Shown here one piece after another: positions 11,484 through 20,643 of a DNA stretch of 64,000 nucleotides. Origin of the DNA: Roseobacter sp. MH60115 (GTDB lineage: Bacteria; Pseudomonadota; Alphaproteobacteria; Rhodobacterales; Rhodobacteraceae). The number at the start of each line of letters is the position of its first letter. Positions within the stretch are counted from its first letter, which is position 1. The notes below the pieces were generated by a model. It saw nothing but the letters and a program-made list of their open reading frames with translations. It was not told where the DNA came from and searched no databases. The position numbers and the translations under genes were made by a program. The stretch lies in NCBI RefSeq assembly GCF_015644665.1, contig NZ_JADOBQ010000001.1:248001-312000 (forward strand), given 5' to 3'.

Positions 11484-12884
11484 CTATTCAACCTGATAGG
11501 GTAGAACATCGCGCAGATTGGGATCGACGCGCAGCTTGCGTTCCAGCGGTGGCACCGCACGTTGATGGCAATTCGCCCGTTCGCAAATCCGGCAGGAGAT
11601 GCCGATGGGCTCAAACGCGCCATCCCGGCTCAGGTCCATGCCATCGGCGTAGACGAGATCGCTGGCGTGCCGCACGTCACATCCTAAGGCAATCGCATAT
11701 CGGCGCACGGGTGCACCGAACCGGCCTGCGGATTTCGACACGTCGCGCGCCAGATTGATGTAGCGGACACCATCAGGGGTCTCCGCCAATTGCCGCAGAA
11801 ACTGGCCGGGCAGTTCAAAGGCGCGGTGCACGTTCCACAGCGGGCAGGCGCCGCCAAACCGGGCAAATTGCAGCCGCGTGGCGGAATGGCGTTTGGTGAT
11901 CGTGCCCGCCTGATCGACCCGGACAAAGAAAAACGGTATGCCTTTGGCGCCGGGGCGCTGGAGGGTCGAAAGCCGGTGCGCCACCTGTTCAATGGAGGCG
12001 CCAAAATGGCCTGCCAGTGCCTCGACATCATGGCGGTAGGTGCGCGCTTCCTGCTGGAACGCGGCATAGGGCATCAGCGCGGCACCCGCGAAGTAATTCG
12101 CCAGTCCAATCTTTGCAATCGCGCGGGCTTCGGCGCTGTGGAACCGCGCCAGGTCCAGCGTGGCTTCCAGCAAGGCCTCCTGTTTGATCAGCGCGACCTG
12201 CAGCAGCAGCTGGAAGGTCTGGCTTTCGGGTGGCGCGCGCCGCGACAGGGTCAGTTCGCGGGTGTCGGGATCGAAACTGCGCAGCTTGTCCGTATCTGCA
12301 AACTGCACGGAAACCTTTGCATTTCCCAAGGCTGAAACCGCGGCGACCCGGATGTTGCGATGTCCGCCTTCCTTATTTGCAAAGTGCTCGGCGGCCCGAT
12401 CCACAGCATCGATATAGTTGTCGCAATAGTGGAAAAAATCGCGCACTTCTTCCCAGGGGCTTGGGGTTGATCGCGCATCTTCCCGGCCCAGTGCTTCGTC
12501 CAATGACGCCAGCCTTTCCTGCATCTGGCGGTAACTGCGGTGCAGCTCCAGAAAGGCATGCGCAAAGGCGGGGGCGTTCGACGCGGCAAGGCGCAGATCT
12601 GCGACCGGGGGCAGGGCGTCTGCGAAAAGCGGGTCCGCCATGGCTTCGCGCATGTCACTGACCAGCCGTTCGCTGTCGCCCGTGCTCAGCTCGGTAACAT
12701 CCAGCCCGAACTCCTGCGCCAGGGCCAGCACCACCGTGGTGGACACCGGCCGGTTGTTGTTTTCCATCTGGTTCAGATAGGGCAGTGAAACACCAAGCTT
12801 GGCGGCAAAGTCCTTCTGCGTCAGGCCTAGGCGCGTGCGCAATTCGCGCAGCTTGGCACCTGCATAGAGTTTCTGTGTGGCCAT
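11484..12884 (-). CDS. pccR: short-chain fatty acyl-CoA regulator, PccR-like
   Basis: The 466-aa protein has an N-terminal XRE HTH (residues 8-62, LRELRTRLGLTQKDFAAKLG) and a long C-terminal region of the ScfR family (IrrE-like/DUF2083), ending with a Cys cluster (GISCRICERANCHQR). PccR of Rhodobacter sphaeroides activates propionyl-CoA carboxylase genes. Start at 12884 (MATQKLYAGAKLREL) follows GGGAG and removes a spurious 15-residue extension. TTTGCAAA boxes lie immediately upstream and again before pccB, consistent with regulation of both. Confidence 0.92.
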   Translation of the reverse strand: MATQKLYAGAKLRELRTRLGLTQKDFAAKLGVSLPYLNQMENNNRPVSTTVVLALAQEFGLDVTELSTGDSERLVSDMREAMADPLFADALPPVADLRLAASNAPAFAHAFLELHRSYRQMQERLASLDEALGREDARSTPSPWEEVRDFFHYCDNYIDAVDRAAEHFANKEGGHRNIRVAAVSALGNAKVSVQFADTDKLRSFDPDTRELTLSRRAPPESQTFQLLLQVALIKQEALLEATLDLARFHSAEARAIAKIGLANYFAGAALMPYAAFQQEARTYRHDVEALAGHFGASIEQVAHRLSTLQRPGAKGIPFFFVRVDQAGTITKRHSATRLQFARFGGACPLWNVHRAFELPGQFLRQLAETPDGVRYINLARDVSKSAGRFGAPVRRYAIALGCDVRHASDLVYADGMDLSRDGAFEPIGISCRICERANCHQRAVPPLERKLRVDPNLRDVLPYQVE

Positions 12885-12905: not shown

Positions 12906-12944
12906 TTTGCAAATTTGCAGATTCGTCAAAGCTATCTTTGCAAA
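12906..12944. promoter_or_regulatory. TTTGCAAA box cluster upstream of pccR
   Basis: TTTGCAAA occurs at 12906-12913, directly followed by TTTGCA at 12914-12919, and again at 12937-12944. The octamer is self-complementary. It starts 21 bases upstream of the chosen pccR start, so it would suit autoregulation. From memory, the published PccR motif is a pair of TTTGCAAA octamers with a 4-base spacer; the spacing here differs, so the boxes rather than the exact arrangement are the evidence. Confidence 0.8.
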
Positions 12945-13151: not shown

Positions 13152-14381
13152 TCAGGTCAGCGGATCCTGCAGCGCAATGCGTCTTTCGCGACGGTAGACC
13201 ATCAGGATCGAGAGGACCGCCGCCGTTGAGGTGGCCAGCATGATGTAGAGCAGGGGGAAGGCCCCGGTTTCCGGACCCAGTGACGCGCCGGCCAACATGC
13301 TGAGGCCAGCACCGCCCCCGATCATGATGGCGCCGCCCAGGCCGGATGCGGAACCAGCAAGATGTGGGCGTACAGACAGCATGCCTGCGGTTGCGTTGGG
13401 GATGACCAGCCCGTTCCCCAGCCCCACAAAGGTCATTAAGCCAAAGAAACTGAGGGCACTGCCGTGGCCCACCAGGAAAATCAGCAGGGAGAGAAATACC
13501 CCGAAGGCGTTGATCAAGCTGCCGATCAGGATCAGTTTGTTGACGCCTACCCGCTGCGCCAGCATGCCGGTGAACATGTTGCCAAAGAAATAGCCAAGGG
13601 CTGGCGCGCCAAAGTAGATGCCCACCCAAAAAGGGGAGAGGCCGAAGACGACGGATCCGACAAAGGGACCGCCGCCGAGGTAGGCAAAAAACGCGCCGGA
13701 GCAGAAGCCCGCAGCAAGCGAGTACCCCCAGAACCTTGGGGAGGTCAGCAAGGCGGGATACTCGCCGAACTGTTGTGTGAGTGTCTTGCCGCTCTTGGTT
13801 GCCGTCTCGCCCTGATCTGCCCAAGCGAGCCAAAGGGTCATGGCGCCCATGATGAAGAGCGCCCAGAAATTGGCGCGCCAGCCAAAGAGCTCGTCCAGCA
13901 CCCCGCCCAGCATGGGGCTGATCATGGGCACGATCGCCATGCCCATCGTGACATAGCCGATCATCGATGCCGCCTTGTCCTGCTCGAACATGTCGCGGAC
14001 GGCGGCACGGCTGAGGACCATGGCCACGGCGACCATCGCCTGACAGACGCGGAAGACAAGGAATATCTCGGCGGTGGGAGCATAGATGCAGCCCAAGGTG
14101 GCGATGAGGAAAATACTCAGTCCAAAAAGGATCACCGGTCTGCGGCCGAACTTGTCGGAGATCGGGCCGATCAGGATCTGCAATATCGCGCTGACCCCGA
14201 GATACAGGCCAACCGAGAGCTGCATCACACCGTATTCGGTCTGGAAATATGCGGTCATATTCGGCAGGCTGGGCAGGAACATATTCATGACCATCGCGGA
14301 CATGCCGGACAGCAGGATCAGCGTCGCGATATGCGGCGGCGTGGTCCGGTCCAGGAAGCGGATGGCAGGCGGATTTTGCAT
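13152..14381 (-). CDS. MFS transporter, Bcr/CflA drug-efflux type
   Basis: The 409-aa protein has twelve predicted membrane segments and the MFS loop motif between TM2 and TM3 (GPISDKFGRRPVILFG, about residues 77-92), with the 14/12-TM Bcr/CflA style N-terminus (FLPSLPNMTAYF, PMISPMLGG). It would export drugs or metabolites using the proton gradient. It lies between pccR and pccB, divergent from pccB. A link to propionate stress is only positional. Confidence 0.85.
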   Translation of the reverse strand: MQNPPAIRFLDRTTPPHIATLILLSGMSAMVMNMFLPSLPNMTAYFQTEYGVMQLSVGLYLGVSAILQILIGPISDKFGRRPVILFGLSIFLIATLGCIYAPTAEIFLVFRVCQAMVAVAMVLSRAAVRDMFEQDKAASMIGYVTMGMAIVPMISPMLGGVLDELFGWRANFWALFIMGAMTLWLAWADQGETATKSGKTLTQQFGEYPALLTSPRFWGYSLAAGFCSGAFFAYLGGGPFVGSVVFGLSPFWVGIYFGAPALGYFFGNMFTGMLAQRVGVNKLILIGSLINAFGVFLSLLIFLVGHGSALSFFGLMTFVGLGNGLVIPNATAGMLSVRPHLAGSASGLGGAIMIGGGAGLSMLAGASLGPETGAFPLLYIMLATSTAAVLSILMVYRRERRIALQDPLT

Positions 14382-14415
14382 TCGTCAACGCTAGGCCACG
14401 TCCGGATTGTTGTCC

Positions 14416-14434
14416 ACGCATAGCTGCTATGCGT
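14416..14434. promoter_or_regulatory. 8-bp inverted repeat upstream of the MFS gene
   Basis: ACGCATAG (14416-14423) and CTATGCGT (14427-14434) are perfect arms around CTG. It sits 35 bases upstream of the MFS start and just upstream of the pccB-side TTTGCAAA boxes. It could be an operator for the transporter or a small hairpin in its leader. Confidence 0.4.
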
Positions 14435-14452
14435 CTCGCGCTTGTTTGCTGA

Positions 14453-14492
14453 TTTGCAATTTGCAAAGTACGTGGTGAATAGACTTTGCAAA
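14453..14492. promoter_or_regulatory. TTTGCAAA box cluster upstream of pccB
   Basis: TTTGCAA at 14453-14459 runs into TTTGCAAA at 14460-14467, and a second TTTGCAAA lies at 14485-14492, 70 bases before the pccB ATG. The layout (tandem octamers, then one more about 17 bases away) mirrors that upstream of pccR. Known PccR targets include pccB, so this is a likely PccR-binding region. Confidence 0.82.
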
Positions 14493-14561
14493 TTAACGAA
14501 ATATACCTTCGATCCTCCGCAATCCTTGAGTATGGTGCCGCAAACAACCAATGGGGTCCCC

Positions 14562-16094
14562 ATGAAAGATATTCTGCATCAGCTTGAAGAGCGTCGTGAA
14601 ACTGCCCGTCTTGGGGGGGGGCAGAGGCGGATCGACGCGCAGCACGGACGTGGCAAGCTTACGGCGCGAGAGCGGGTTGACCTTCTGCTGGATGAAGGCA
14701 GCTTTGAAGAGTTCGATATGTTCGTGACCCACCGCTGCACCGATTTCGGCATGGATCAGGAAAAGCCTGCGGGGGACGGTGTTGTCACCGGCTGGGGGAC
14801 GATCAACGGGCGTTTGGTGTATGTTTTCAGTCAGGATTTTACGGTTCTGGGGGGCTCTGTCTCGGAGACCCACGCCAAGAAGATCTGCAAGATCATGGAT
14901 ATGGCGGTGCAGAACGGCGCGCCGGTCATCGGCATCAACGATTCCGGTGGTGCGCGGATTCAAGAAGGTGTGGATTCCCTAGCGGGCTATGGTGATGTCT
15001 TTCAGCGTAACATCATGGCGTCAGGCGTGGTGCCGCAGATCAGCGTGATCATGGGTCCTTGCGCGGGCGGTGCGGTCTATTCGCCCGCCATGACCGACTT
15101 CATCTTTATGGTCAAAGACAGCTCTTACATGTTCGTGACGGGCCCGGATGTGGTGAAGACCGTGACAAACGAGCAGGTGACGGCGGAAGAACTCGGTGGT
15201 GCGGGCACCCATACCAAAAAGTCATCGGTGGCTGACGCGGCTTTCGAGAATGACGTGGAAGCGCTTGCGGAAGTGCGGCGTCTTGTGGACTTCCTGCCGT
15301 CGAACAACCGGGAAAAACCACCTGTCCGCCCCTTTTTCGATGACCCCGACCGGGTTGAGACGTCACTGGACACGCTTGTGCCCGAAAACCCCAACACGCC
15401 CTATGACATGAAGGAGCTGATCCTGAAGCTTGGCGACGAGGGGGATTTCTACGAAATACAGGAAGAGTTCGCCAAGAACATCATCACCGGGTTTATCCGC
15501 CTTGAGGGGCGCACCGTGGGCGTTGTGGCGAACCAGCCGATGGTGCTGGCGGGCTGTCTGGACATCGACAGCTCGCGCAAAGCGGCCCGCTTCGTGCGTT
15601 TCTGCGATGCGTTTGAAATCCCGATCCTGACATTGATCGACGTACCGGGCTTTTTGCCGGGGACCAGCCAGGAGTACGGCGGTGTGATCAAACACGGGGC
15701 GAAACTGCTTTATGCCTATGGTGAGGCGACGGTGCCGATGGTCACGGTGATCACCCGCAAGGCCTACGGTGGGGCCTATGTGGTGATGTCCTCCAAGCAC
15801 CTGCAGGCGGACTTCAACTATGCCTGGCCTACGGCGGAGATTGCGGTGATGGGCGCCAAAGGGGCGACGGAGATCATCCACCGTGGTGATCTGGGGGACG
15901 CGGAGAAAACGGCGAAACACACGGCGGACTATGAGGAACGCTTTGCCAACCCCTTCGTGGCGGCGGAACGCGGTTTCATCGACGAGGTGATCATGCCGCG
16001 CACGACCCGCAAACGCATCGCCCGCGCCTTTGCCAGCCTGCGCAACAAGCAGGCAAACACGCCGTGGAAGAAGCACGACAATATTCCGCTTTAA
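14562..16094 (+). CDS. pccB: propionyl-CoA carboxylase beta subunit (carboxyltransferase)
   Basis: Transfers CO2 from carboxybiotin to propionyl-CoA, giving (S)-methylmalonyl-CoA, in complex with PccA. The 510-aa product starts [20 protein letters not shown] and carries the acyl-CoA and carboxybiotin oxyanion-hole blocks ([43 protein letters not shown]). Length is normal. ATG 14562 restores the family N-terminus; the open frame extends upstream to 14442 through the regulatory boxes and is not coding there. Confidence 0.97.
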
Positions 16095-16113
16095 GCGAAA
16101 GAAGTACTTCGAA

Positions 16114-16836
16114 ATGAGGAGAATAGATCAGGTTGTAGATGCTTTTCGAAAGCTTGGCGGCGCGGGCCGAATGGAAGATGTCTACAAGTACTTTGAAGTA
16201 ACCGCAGAGGAAGAGTTGCCTCGGACATGGCGCGAAGGTGTTCGAGCTAGAATATACGAGCATTCATCTGATGCGCCCGGTGACTTCAGAGAAGACCTTT
16301 TCGAAAAGATTGAACATGGATTCTGGAAACTTCGAGGTGCACCCATTGAATCGGGCCTGATCGAAGAGCGAAGAGATTTGTCCGCCGATGAAGTCGTGGA
16401 AAAGGTGCTTGTTCGAGAACACTGGAGGAGCAAGCCGCAGCAATCGCTCTGGAGAAACCAGGCCTTCACAATCACCCACGCGGATGATGGCAAGTTCGAG
16501 GGCGCGGGGTTGCGGCCCTTCTTCGAATACCGCGATCTGGGGATCAAGGAGGCGACGCAGGGCAAATTCGGCGCACACATCATCCGCGCTGTGCCGGGTA
16601 TGGAAAGCCCCGCAACATGGCATTCGCATGATCTGGCGTTCCAGATGGTCTATGTCACCCAAGGTTGGGTGGTCTTCGAATACGAGGGTACTGGCGAACA
16701 TGTTCTGCGCGCAGGGTCCTGCGTGCTGCAACCGCCCGGGATCAAGCACCGGGAAGTGCGCCATTCCGACGATCTCGAACTGTTGGAGGTGATCTCCCCG
16801 GCGGATTTCGATACCCGGGACGAGGACGCCCCATGA
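16114..16836 (+). CDS. winged-helix/cupin fusion protein, 240 aa
   Basis: Residues 1-75 look like a winged-helix domain (RRIDQVVDAFRKLGG, YEHSSD, GFWKLRG) of the kind attached to restriction-type and other DNA-related proteins. Residues 118-232 form a one-domain cupin (THADDGKFEG; WHSHDLAFQMVYV with His170 and His172; GSCVLQPPGIKHREV with His212). A 40-residue linker joins them in frame. By my hand count 16141-16380 is 50% GC, versus 64% for 16501-16620 inside the cupin part. In relatives I would expect the cupin alone here, so the 5' part looks acquired. Start 16114 is 20 bases after pccB. Confidence 0.8.
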   Translation: MRRIDQVVDAFRKLGGAGRMEDVYKYFEVTAEEELPRTWREGVRARIYEHSSDAPGDFREDLFEKIEHGFWKLRGAPIESGLIEERRDLSADEVVEKVLVREHWRSKPQQSLWRNQAFTITHADDGKFEGAGLRPFFEYRDLGIKEATQGKFGAHIIRAVPGMESPATWHSHDLAFQMVYVTQGWVVFEYEGTGEHVLRAGSCVLQPPGIKHREVRHSDDLELLEVISPADFDTRDEDAP

Positions 16837-17213
16837 GCCTGGTGACGGTCATCGCATTCACCGCCGCCACGGCCTTGCCCGTGCTCGATGTGCCATCAGG
16901 CCAGCCGGTGGAGCTTTATGAGGTTTTGGTCGATAAGGTCGGTGCCGAAACATGGCTGCGATTCCGCTTTCTGACACCGGAGATCGCGCGCGACGGTGGC
17001 AGTATCACCTTCATCGAGGCCGAAGCGGATCTGGAGCACCTCTGCGCCGAAGTCGCGCTGCCCTATCTCGCGGAATACGACCTCGCGCCCGAGATCGTGG
17101 CGGTTACGCTGCTGGACCGCCCGGTGGCCTTTGGTCTCACCGATCCGGAGGTCACGCAGTTCATTGATGTGTTCAGGGTTACCTCGGGTGCCTGTATCTG
17201 GGAGGGGTTCTGA
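16833..17213 (+). CDS. conserved hypothetical secreted protein (DUF6497-like), 126 aa
   Basis: The ATG overlaps the cupin stop (ATGA), so translation is coupled. The N-terminus (VTVIAFTAATALPVLDVPSG) is hydrophobic and could be a short signal peptide. The rest is an acidic small domain with two Cys (HLCAEVALPYL, GACIWEGF). It resembles a Rhodobacterales-specific family that I tentatively equate with DUF6497. Function unknown; position suggests a constant but perhaps incidental neighbour of pccB. Confidence 0.7.
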   Translation: MSLVTVIAFTAATALPVLDVPSGQPVELYEVLVDKVGAETWLRFRFLTPEIARDGGSITFIEAEADLEHLCAEVALPYLAEYDLAPEIVAVTLLDRPVAFGLTDPEVTQFIDVFRVTSGACIWEGF

Positions 17214-17600: not shown

Positions 17601-17634
17601 TGACCGGCGCACCTCTGTTGTGGGGAGGGGCGTC

Positions 17635-17991
17635 ATGCTGAAGCACCGCGGATTTCCCGGTCGATTGCCGGGCACCGATTTCCATTTCACGCTCAGACGG
17701 TTCAATCCGCGTGGGGTCACCCCGCTGACAGAGCGCGCGCGTTTCAAGGATCGCAAGCCCGCCGACCGGCGCGCAGACGCGGCCTTTTTCCAGGCACTCT
17801 GGGAGCATTTTGGCCCTGAGCCGTTCGAGCGGGGCAATCTTGATGCGGGCCGGTTGTCCTGGCTTTTTGGCCGCGAGGTGATTCCCGCCACCGATCCCTT
17901 TGATCCAGCGGACTACGAGGCAATGCTGGTGATCGACGAAAGGGTTGCGCGCCAGTCATTTCCGGAAGCGTTCGAGGGAGGATCGGCATGA
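17635..17991 (+). CDS. conserved hypothetical protein, 118 aa
   Basis: Starts at ATG 17635 (MLKHRGFPGRLPG), preceded by GGGGAGGGG. The product is soluble, rich in Arg, Phe and Asp, with no membrane segment or recognisable motif. It ends with an ATGA overlap to a short open frame at 17988 that soon loses coding character. Similar small genes accompany pccB/pccA in related genomes as far as I recall; the function is unknown. Confidence 0.65.
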   Translation: MLKHRGFPGRLPGTDFHFTLRRFNPRGVTPLTERARFKDRKPADRRADAAFFQALWEHFGPEPFERGNLDAGRLSWLFGREVIPATDPFDPADYEAMLVIDERVARQSFPEAFEGGSA

Positions 17992-18597: not shown

Positions 18598-20643
18598 ATG
18601 TTCAATAAGATCCTGATCGCCAATCGTGGCGAGATTGCCTGCCGCGTCATCAAGTCTGCCCGCAAGATGGGGATCAAGACCATCGCGATCTATTCCGATG
18701 CGGATAAGCAGGCCCTGCATGTGCAGATGGCTGATGAGGCGGTGCATATCGGTCCGCCGCCCGCCAACCAGTCCTACATCGTGATCGACAAGGTGATGGA
18801 GGCGATCAAATCCTCCGGCGCCGAAGCCGTGCATCCCGGATATGGGTTTCTGTCGGAAAACGCCAAGTTTGCCGAGGCACTGGCAGAGGCGGGTGTCGCA
18901 TTTGTCGGCCCCCCCACAGGTGCCATCGAGCAGATGGGGGACAAGATCACCTCCAAGAAGATCGCGCAGGAGGCTGGGGTCAGCACGGTGCCGGGCTACA
19001 TGGGACTGATCGAAGATGCGGAAGAAGCGGTCAAGATTTCGAATGAAATCGGCTATCCGGTGATGCTCAAGGCCTCCGCGGGCGGCGGTGGCAAAGGCAT
19101 GCGCATTGCCTGGAATGATGAAGAGGCACGCGAGGGCTTCCAGTCGTCCAAAAATGAGGCGGCCAATTCCTTTGGGGATGACCGGATTTTCATTGAAAAA
19201 TTCGTGACCCAGCCGCGCCACATCGAAATTCAGGTGCTCTGTGACGCGCATGGCAATGGCATCTATCTCGGGGAGCGGGAGTGTTCGATCCAGCGGCGCA
19301 ACCAGAAGGTGGTCGAAGAGGCGCCCAGCCCGTTTCTGGATGAGGCCACACGCAAGGCGATGGGCGAGCAGGCGGTCGCCCTGGCGCAGGCGGTTGGGTA
19401 CACCAGCGCGGGCACCGTCGAATTCATCGTCGACGGCGACAAGAATTTCTACTTCCTGGAGATGAACACGCGCCTGCAGGTGGAGCACCCGGTGACCGAG
19501 CTGATCACCGGTGTCGATCTGGTGGAGCAGATGATCCGCGTTGCCAATGGCGAAAAGCTGACCATCTCACAGTCGGATGTGACGCTGACCGGATGGGCCA
19601 TCGAAAACCGGCTTTATGCAGAGGACCCGTATCGTGGCTTCCTGCCGTCCATTGGTCGGCTAACGCGCTACCGCCCGCCCGCCGAGGTTGCCGCCGGGCC
19701 GCTTCTCGACAATGACAAGTGGCACGGCGATGCCGAGAGTGGTCCTGCAGCGGTGCGCAACGACACCGGCGTCTATGAGGGCGGCGAGATCAGCATGTAC
19801 TACGATCCGATGATCGCCAAGCTTTGCACCTGGGCGCCGACGCGGGCGGAGGCGATTGAGGCGATGCGCGTGGCACTGGATAGCTTCGAGGTGGAAGGGA
19901 TCGGCCATAACCTGCCCTTCCTCTCCGCCGTCATGGATCATCCAAAATTCATTTCCGGCGACATGACGACAGCTTTCATCGCCGAAGAATACCCAGACGG
20001 TTTTGACGGCGTCGAATTGCCGGAAGCGGAATTGATCCGCATTGCGGCGGCCTGTGCAGCCATGCACCGGGTTGCGGAAATCCGGCGTGCGCGGGTGTCG
20101 GGCCGCATGGACAACCACGAACGCAAGGTCGGATCGGACTGGAACGTGCGGCTGCAGGGCCAGTCCTATGACGTGACCATCGCGGCGGATCAGGACGGCT
20201 CGACGGTGACCTTCGAGGACGGCGCGGAGTTGCGGGTGTCCGGCGCCTGGACGCCCGGTGACCAACTGGCGGAAATGACCGTGGCCGACGCCCCCCTGGT
20301 GCTGAAGGTCGGCAAGGTCAGCGGCGGGTTCCGCATCCGGACACGGGGGGCCGATCTCAAGGTGCATGTGCGCACGCCGCGTCAGGCGGAACTGGCGCGC
20401 AAGATGCCTGAGAAACTGCCGCCCGACACCTCCAAGATGCTGCTCTGCCCGATGCCGGGGCTGGTGGTGAAGATGGATGTCGCCGTGGGCGACGAAGTGC
20501 AGGATGGTCAGGCGCTCTGCACCATCGAGGCGATGAAGATGGAGAACATCCTGCGCGCCGAACGCCGGGGCGTGGTGTCCAAGATCAATGCGACCGCCGG
20601 GGACAGTCTGGCCGTGGACGATGTGATCATGGAGTTCGAATGA
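18598..20643 (+). CDS. pccA: propionyl-CoA/acetyl-CoA carboxylase alpha subunit (biotin carboxylase + BCCP)
   Basis: Carboxylates its own biotin with ATP and bicarbonate for transfer by PccB. The 681-aa protein starts MFNKILIANRGEIACRVIKS, has the biotin carboxylase ATP-grasp glycine loop (KASAGGGGKGMRIAW) and the catalytic blocks (RDCSIQRR-like ERECSIQRRNQK; FYFLEMNTRLQVEHPVTE), a central BT-type linker, and a C-terminal biotinyl domain with the biotinylated Lys647 in EAMKMENILR. Length is usual. ATG 18598 restores the canonical N-terminus. Confidence 0.97.
   Translation: MFNKILIANRGEIACRVIKSARKMGIKTIAIYSDADKQALHVQMADEAVHIGPPPANQSYIVIDKVMEAIKSSGAEAVHPGYGFLSENAKFAEALAEAGVAFVGPPTGAIEQMGDKITSKKIAQEAGVSTVPGYMGLIEDAEEAVKISNEIGYPVMLKASAGGGGKGMRIAWNDEEAREGFQSSKNEAANSFGDDRIFIEKFVTQPRHIEIQVLCDAHGNGIYLGERECSIQRRNQKVVEEAPSPFLDEATRKAMGEQAVALAQAVGYTSAGTVEFIVDGDKNFYFLEMNTRLQVEHPVTELITGVDLVEQMIRVANGEKLTISQSDVTLTGWAIENRLYAEDPYRGFLPSIGRLTRYRPPAEVAAGPLLDNDKWHGDAESGPAAVRNDTGVYEGGEISMYYDPMIAKLCTWAPTRAEAIEAMRVALDSFEVEGIGHNLPFLSAVMDHPKFISGDMTTAFIAEEYPDGFDGVELPEAELIRIAAACAAMHRVAEIRRARVSGRMDNHERKVGSDWNVRLQGQSYDVTIAADQDGSTVTFEDGAELRVSGAWTPGDQLAEMTVADAPLVLKVGKVSGGFRIRTRGADLKVHVRTPRQAELARKMPEKLPPDTSKMLLCPMPGLVVKMDVAVGDEVQDGQALCTIEAMKMENILRAERRGVVSKINATAGDSLAVDDVIMEFE

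Follow-up and report, generated by a model that had tools for sequence, protein, structure and literature searches.

Trigger enzymes such as PutA are metabolic proteins that carry a DNA-binding domain. In PutA a single enzyme owns that domain, whereas the winged-helix (wH) module described here is carried by three mutually unrelated proteins of a single cluster, the propionyl-CoA carboxylase (pcc) cluster, and its DNA binding is putative. Small wH domains that can likewise be combined with different bodies occur in wH-HNH, PUA-wH-HNH and DpnI-type restriction enzymes, and wH domains of several nucleases are described as readers of N6-methyladenine (6mA) (PMC11037411). The system in the window, i.e., the whole 64-kb stretch of DNA analyzed here, differs from these enzymes in its metabolic partners, its lack of a nuclease domain and its constant locus. 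The stand-alone cupin of the pcc cluster shares the cupin domain and the gene order at pcc loci with the protein studied here, but it has no wH and uses its own start codon. PccR, a ScfR-family regulator of propionyl-CoA carboxylase (PMC10370305), controls the same pathway and differs from the module in being a separate regulator protein. The titles and abstracts among the matches listed describe no such fusions of wH with cupin, RidA or PccA, which is weak evidence of novelty since subscription journals are mostly uncovered.

The gene of interest is an in-frame fusion located between pccB and pccA. Its ORF runs on the forward strand from an ATG at 16114 to a stop codon ending at 16836 and is spaced by 19 bases from the pccB stop, which ends at 16094; the original prediction had let the gene begin at 16095, which is too early. 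Its description as a 240-aa fusion of wH, linker and cupin was otherwise borne out, as residues 1-74 are wH-like, residues 75-112 form the linker and Cupin_2 lies C-terminally. The locus contains the following features:

11484..12884, minus strand: PccR-like regulator; tblastn finds homologues adjoining pcc in two genomes, G968 and G1092, at 73% and 75% identity
14453..14491, plus strand: candidate TTTGCAA boxes 5' of pccB, at 14453, 14460 and 14485
14562..16094, plus strand: pccB, propionyl-CoA carboxylase beta chain, 510 aa (Pfam Carboxyl_trans, E 9.2e-201)
16114..16335, plus strand: residues 1-74, the wH-like and GC-poor domain of the grafted module (alignment, composition)
16336..16449, plus strand: linker of the module, residues 75-112, joined to the cupin near residues 111-112 (identity to other fusions)
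16450..16836, plus strand: cupin domain, which no longer has its native start codon (Cupin_2, E 1.4e-8 when the cupin part is searched by itself; native starts of relatives)
16833..17213, plus strand: DUF6497 protein whose start overlaps the stop of the fusion (Pfam, E 1.9e-37)
17620..17991, plus strand: conserved pcc-cluster protein, no Pfam match
18598..20643, plus strand: pccA, propionyl-CoA carboxylase alpha chain; the G1095 homologue bears the module (Pfam and locus comparison)

A methylmalonyl-CoA mutase gene is also among the neighbors. The GC step that had been noticed inside the gene is real, with 47.7% GC (GC3 41.9%) in the wH part and 60.5% (GC3 72.9%) in the cupin; the linker has 55.3% and pccB 59.0%. 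Among 221 control windows of 74 codons, taken from 51 long ORFs that were picked mechanically within the 64-kb window, GC was as low in 2 and GC3 as low in 6. An artefact or chance ORF can be ruled out because the full-length fusion recurs in L005 (95% identity to the window protein) and in L006, from Tateyamaria omphalii (73%).

These two copies came from a genome-contig scan that took short peptide patterns from the window protein as seeds and yielded 28 related loci. The cupin is fused in these 2 (L005, L006), stands alone in 25 (L007-L031) and is cut off in one, where a truncated pcc cupin lies at L032:5019-5207 of a Sulfitobacter MAG with 47 of 128 residues matched. The relatives start with MTLWKNQAFTI.HADDGKFEG and similar sequences, i.e., where a stand-alone cupin had been predicted to begin. 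A cupin free of wH in 25/28 loci and the low GC of the wH also support the proposal that a domain of foreign composition displaced the cupin's own start. pccA is present in 27/28 loci and pccB in 25/28, where L023 and L027 extend only a short distance upstream and L029 showed neither gene. The slot between pccB and the cupin is variable. It holds orfX in L006, L014, L015, L017, L020, L027 and L031, orfX lies 3' of the cupin instead in five loci (L021, L022, L025, L028 and L030), and a RidA-family gene occupies the slot in L007, the sole locus tested for it. In G1134 (L086:1896-2706) a different ORF, with a signal-peptide-like start by eye, lies between pccB and RidA. The genus of the window has a pcc-type cupin in 9/19 genomes, of which two are fused (the window and G304, the genome of L005). 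The tblastn matches in L017, L021 and L023 with an apparent start at query residues 69-73 read through stops 5' of stand-alone cupins. Broad conservation of the fusion was ruled out in the samples searched (the 28 loci and the genus, family and order of the window), and the same full-length architecture in most Rhodobacterales, which would have spoken against the original prediction, was looked for and not seen there. A relocation of RidA elsewhere in the window genome was also discarded, as the best matches are merely 31% identical.

The distribution of the module was searched with the N-terminal 112 aa of the window protein, or alignments of it, at a cut-off of E<=0.001. Matches were found in 2/295 genomes of the family, 6/385 of the class and 6/398 of the phylum, and in 5/394 of the family with a better profile, 3/121 of the relatives of G1095 and 7/361 of the order, in overlapping samples that represent each genus by few genomes. 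Strong matches (E < 1e-30) come from six genomes, namely the window, L005, L006, G968, G1092 and G1095, and each of the six copies is located in the pcc cluster. Their partners are three unrelated proteins: cupin in the window, L005 and L006, RidA in G968 and G1092, and PccA in G1095. In G968 the module lies directly 3' of pccB and continues into RidA (Ribonuc_L-PSP confirmed by Pfam), while in G1092 it lies 3' of orfX and continues into a RidA part that is 72% identical to the RidA of L007. It also follows orfX in L006, where it continues into the cupin, and in G1095 it lies 3' of a terminator-like stem (by eye) and continues into PccA, with biotin carboxylase domains per Pfam. The latter protein (L074:1501-3294) is a PccA whose N terminus is extended in frame by a wH part of ~110 aa. 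The wH on RidA in G968 and the wH on PccA in G1095 are 77% identical, and the GC of the wH is lower than that of its partner in 6/6 copies. In L068:1501-2247 the RidA part of a wH-RidA fusion aligns with the C terminus of the PADLOC model PD-T4-2_B (E 2.3e-17), which probably reflects merely the common RidA domain.

What is constant is therefore the module together with the pcc locus, and the wH is not confined to the cupin. The pairing of wH and cupin that had been put forward is real as a fusion, but the module is not cupin-specific, as other genomes carry it on RidA or PccA. Since the pcc copy occurs in only 3/394 family genomes, its rarity shows that the module is dispensable, a point against the reading preferred below. 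Within the genus of G968 the graft is present in 1/5 genomes. Our preferred reading, to which we give a probability of roughly 0.4, is that a wH module resides in the pcc cluster as the N-terminal part of whichever gene lies downstream, and putatively acts on pcc via DNA. That its work concerns the pcc operon is suggested because nothing but module and locus stays constant.

The partner's ancestral start codon is gone in the cupin and RidA fusions: the ATG of three aligned congeners is AAG at the G968 junction, and M-T of the cupin is Q-S at the window junction. In G1095, PccA retains its ATG and the leader GAGGGACAGGCC, which resembles the purine-rich leaders of other pccA genes. Because both are retained, PccA may also be made alone in G1095, from within the fusion. 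The linker is common to the window, L006 (58% identity to the window), G1092 (47%) and G968 (42%), and barely recognizable in G1095 (20%).

In the wH tree of 16 sequences, the six pcc copies cluster together (71/83; recovered in 72% of 200 bootstrap trees). L066, L067 and L070 (apparent chance matches) and repeats of the same places were kept out of this tree and of alignment A5; L097 was also excluded as a chance match, and L095 and L096 are in the tree and not in A5. The fused cupins are not one group in the cupin tree, which was made without the truncated L032: window and L005 join the unfused L007 (100/98), and L006 joins the unfused L017 (94/89). Because the wH copies group together while the fused cupins join local unfused ones, the trees fit a module that was recruited to the pcc locus once and then grafted onto local proteins, with moderate support for a single group of pcc copies. 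Alternatively, the two cupin lineages may stem from a single wH-cupin join that was spread by crossovers inside the cupin.

The sister of L005 is L007 (from genome G306), which has RidA at the position of the module, and the identities among the window, L005 and L007 form a mosaic around one tract:

13700..16480, no strand: patchy recombination-like tract common to the window and L005, clear at 13.7-15.2 and 16.10-16.48 kb and mixed between

Identity between L005 and L007 outside this tract is mostly 94-99% but falls to 90-92% at 18.7-19.2 kb and to 87-94% at 11.6-12.5 kb, and at 16.6-20.9 kb the window is 84-92% identical to L005 and L007 alike. At 13.7-15.2 kb the pattern is reversed, with 95-98% identity between window and L005 and 90-92% between L005 and L007. 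Identity between window and L005 is 98.8% in the module (16097-16344), while at 15800-16096 L005 is closer to L007 (94.9%) than to the window (90.9%). A second patch in which L005 has higher identity to the window than to L007 lies at 11750-12350, within the PccR-like gene. Synonymous divergence between window and L005 is 0.33 for pccB, 0.04 for the wH (74 codons only), 0.62 for the cupin and 0.63 for pccA. Because of this mosaic and these divergences, we infer that the pattern fits an exchange of the module between the lineages of the window and L005 by recombination.

Such a mosaic surrounding the module is also what a selfish or near-neutral passenger might leave, i.e., a fragment of a nuclease-type gene in a recombination-prone slot where only stop-free in-frame joins are tolerated. 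The variable content of the slot (orfX, RidA or another ORF) and the probable mobile DNA, by eye, around some module relatives agree with this. However, the protein is conserved between window and L006 despite large synonymous divergence, the module is also found 5' of pccA, outside the slot, and a passenger would leave the lack of strong copies elsewhere unexplained; we regard this explanation as rather unlikely. dN/dS of the wH is 0.10 between window and L006 at a dS of 2.1, which is near saturation, and the other computable pairs range from 0.10 to 0.58, while dS could not be computed for the remaining pairs. The wH is likely under constraint, which is imprecisely measured because of this saturation and spread. 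A phage or viral origin was rejected because phages gave no match and neither did two scans of viral contigs, and a plasmid origin because only distant matches were seen, in 2 and 5 records.

Under the preferred reading the module would act on pcc, and the cluster already appears to have a regulator. The gene at 11484..12884 on the minus strand, which we name PccR-like by assumption, adjoins pcc in the window, G968 and G1092, while in G1095 (L102) no PccR-like gene was found within the 20 kb examined. PccR is not known to be related to the wH module. Candidate TTTGCAA boxes, which we take to be the PccR-type motif, lie 5' of pccB in the window, G968, G1092 and G1095, with further copies in the window at 12906 and 12937. 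The presence of both PccR-like genes and candidate boxes in the window, G968 and G1092 counts against control of pcc by the module. A comparison by eye of the 60 bases 5' of six module copies revealed no shared operator. The palindrome GAAGTACTTC directly 5' of the start codon in the window is common to the window and L005, but it was not taken as an operator because it is missing in L006, G968, G1092 and G1095.

The fusion could alternatively, as originally proposed, be a one-component regulator whose cupin responds to a metabolite and whose wH recognizes a pcc operator, with the RidA and PccA fusions as parallel sensor fusions. The cupin is a Cupin_2 domain (PF07883) by Pfam (residues 161-225, E 5e-8, 33.0 bits against a gathering score of 27.2), and it also passes the Pfam cut-off of AraC_binding (25.6 vs 21.1 bits). 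H170, H172 and H212, presumably a metal site, are conserved in the structure alignment A4 (window plus 23/28 loci), and the nearest solved relative of the pcc-cluster cupin is PDB 2o8q (E 5.9e-45). The AraC_binding match, the conserved histidines and the position of the gene in the operon would suit a sensor. Against it speak the three unrelated partners, one of them a catalytic subunit, the lack of a known ligand and the PccR-like gene that is present already. We therefore consider a one-component regulator unlikely.

The module itself is likely a winged helix, judged from its sequence, and its homology is with nuclease-associated domains. In the plasmid search 4/5 weaker relatives were annotated as HNH endonuclease; HNH was confirmed by Pfam in L069 and L095, labeled by eye in L065, L077, L078 and L096, and L064 has a sub-threshold DUF3427 only (the labels of L063 and L071 are also by eye). 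This agrees with the expectation that the wH would match unrelated proteins. G16, R44, F63, G69 and W71 are invariant across 13 aligned wH sequences. A stand-alone wH protein of ~82 aa in G135 (L034:1492-1740), near an ArdC-like antirestriction gene (labels by eye), is possibly close to the source of the module. In the window protein, HNH had no match at E<=1 in Pfam or NCBIfam, which sets it apart from wH-HNH endonucleases, and residues 1-81 had zero Pfam or NCBIfam model matches at that threshold. Forkhead (PF00250), taken to represent the winged-helix families, was absent from the window wH in Pfam and was matched below cut-off in 2/13 wH sequences, both distant non-pcc relatives (E 0.028 and 0.039). 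DpnI_C, the Dam-replacing HTH and a 6mA reader, was matched in only one of the 13, again from a distant relative, with E 0.11 and 13.2 bits where the gathering score is 23. These sub-threshold matches carry little weight because the unrelated families Unstab_antitox (0.027) and HEPN_Swt1 (0.033) score level with Forkhead. The best PDB profile match of the wH was a forkhead (E 0.13), with no DpnI chain up to E 10, and two AlphaFold2 predictions were of low confidence (mean pLDDT 41 and 51). Whether the proposed match to a DNA-binding family is upheld depends on what is counted: no curated model reached its cut-off, but there is homology to N-terminal domains of nucleases. DNA binding by the module is putative, as curated DNA-binding models do not match the window wH. 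A role as a DNA tether or as a reader of modified DNA, in the way that type IV restriction enzymes read 6mA through wH domains, is highly improbable for the module; it would place pcc proteins on DNA and leave transcription alone. wH fusion endonucleases including wH-HNH are described as 6mA-dependent (PMC11037411) and the module is kin to domains of HNH-type proteins, but the similarity to DpnI_C is limited to that one distant relative and DpnI is missing from the PDB profile matches.

The module is most likely a domesticated, putative DNA-binding module tied to the pcc operon. According to our preferred reading, a wH module of ~110 aa, kin to domains of HNH-type nucleases, would have entered the pcc cluster of some Rhodobacteraceae and been retained as an in-frame N-terminal extension of the next gene downstream, be it cupin, RidA or PccA. 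It would bind DNA at or near pcc and match pcc expression to the operon's own product, and the partner protein would serve as carrier or as metabolite-responsive body. Regulation of pcc by the module is plausible in this scheme. A bolder version, which we hold with considerable doubt, is that the operon owns the module, which swaps partners, spreads by recombination and turns operon proteins into DNA-bound self-monitors, perhaps as a reader of methylated DNA.

Fusions usually hold a pair of domains together, whereas here, in a few marine bacteria, one domain tracks one locus while its partner changes, and the set of partners includes the biotin carboxylase subunit PccA with a wH extension. This hints at a new route by which a metabolic gene cluster can acquire a built-in DNA-binding part. 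Should the module control pcc, the locus would be a compact natural experiment in the acquisition of regulators by operons. Should it instead be a passenger, it would mark an insertion-tolerant slot inside a central metabolic cluster.
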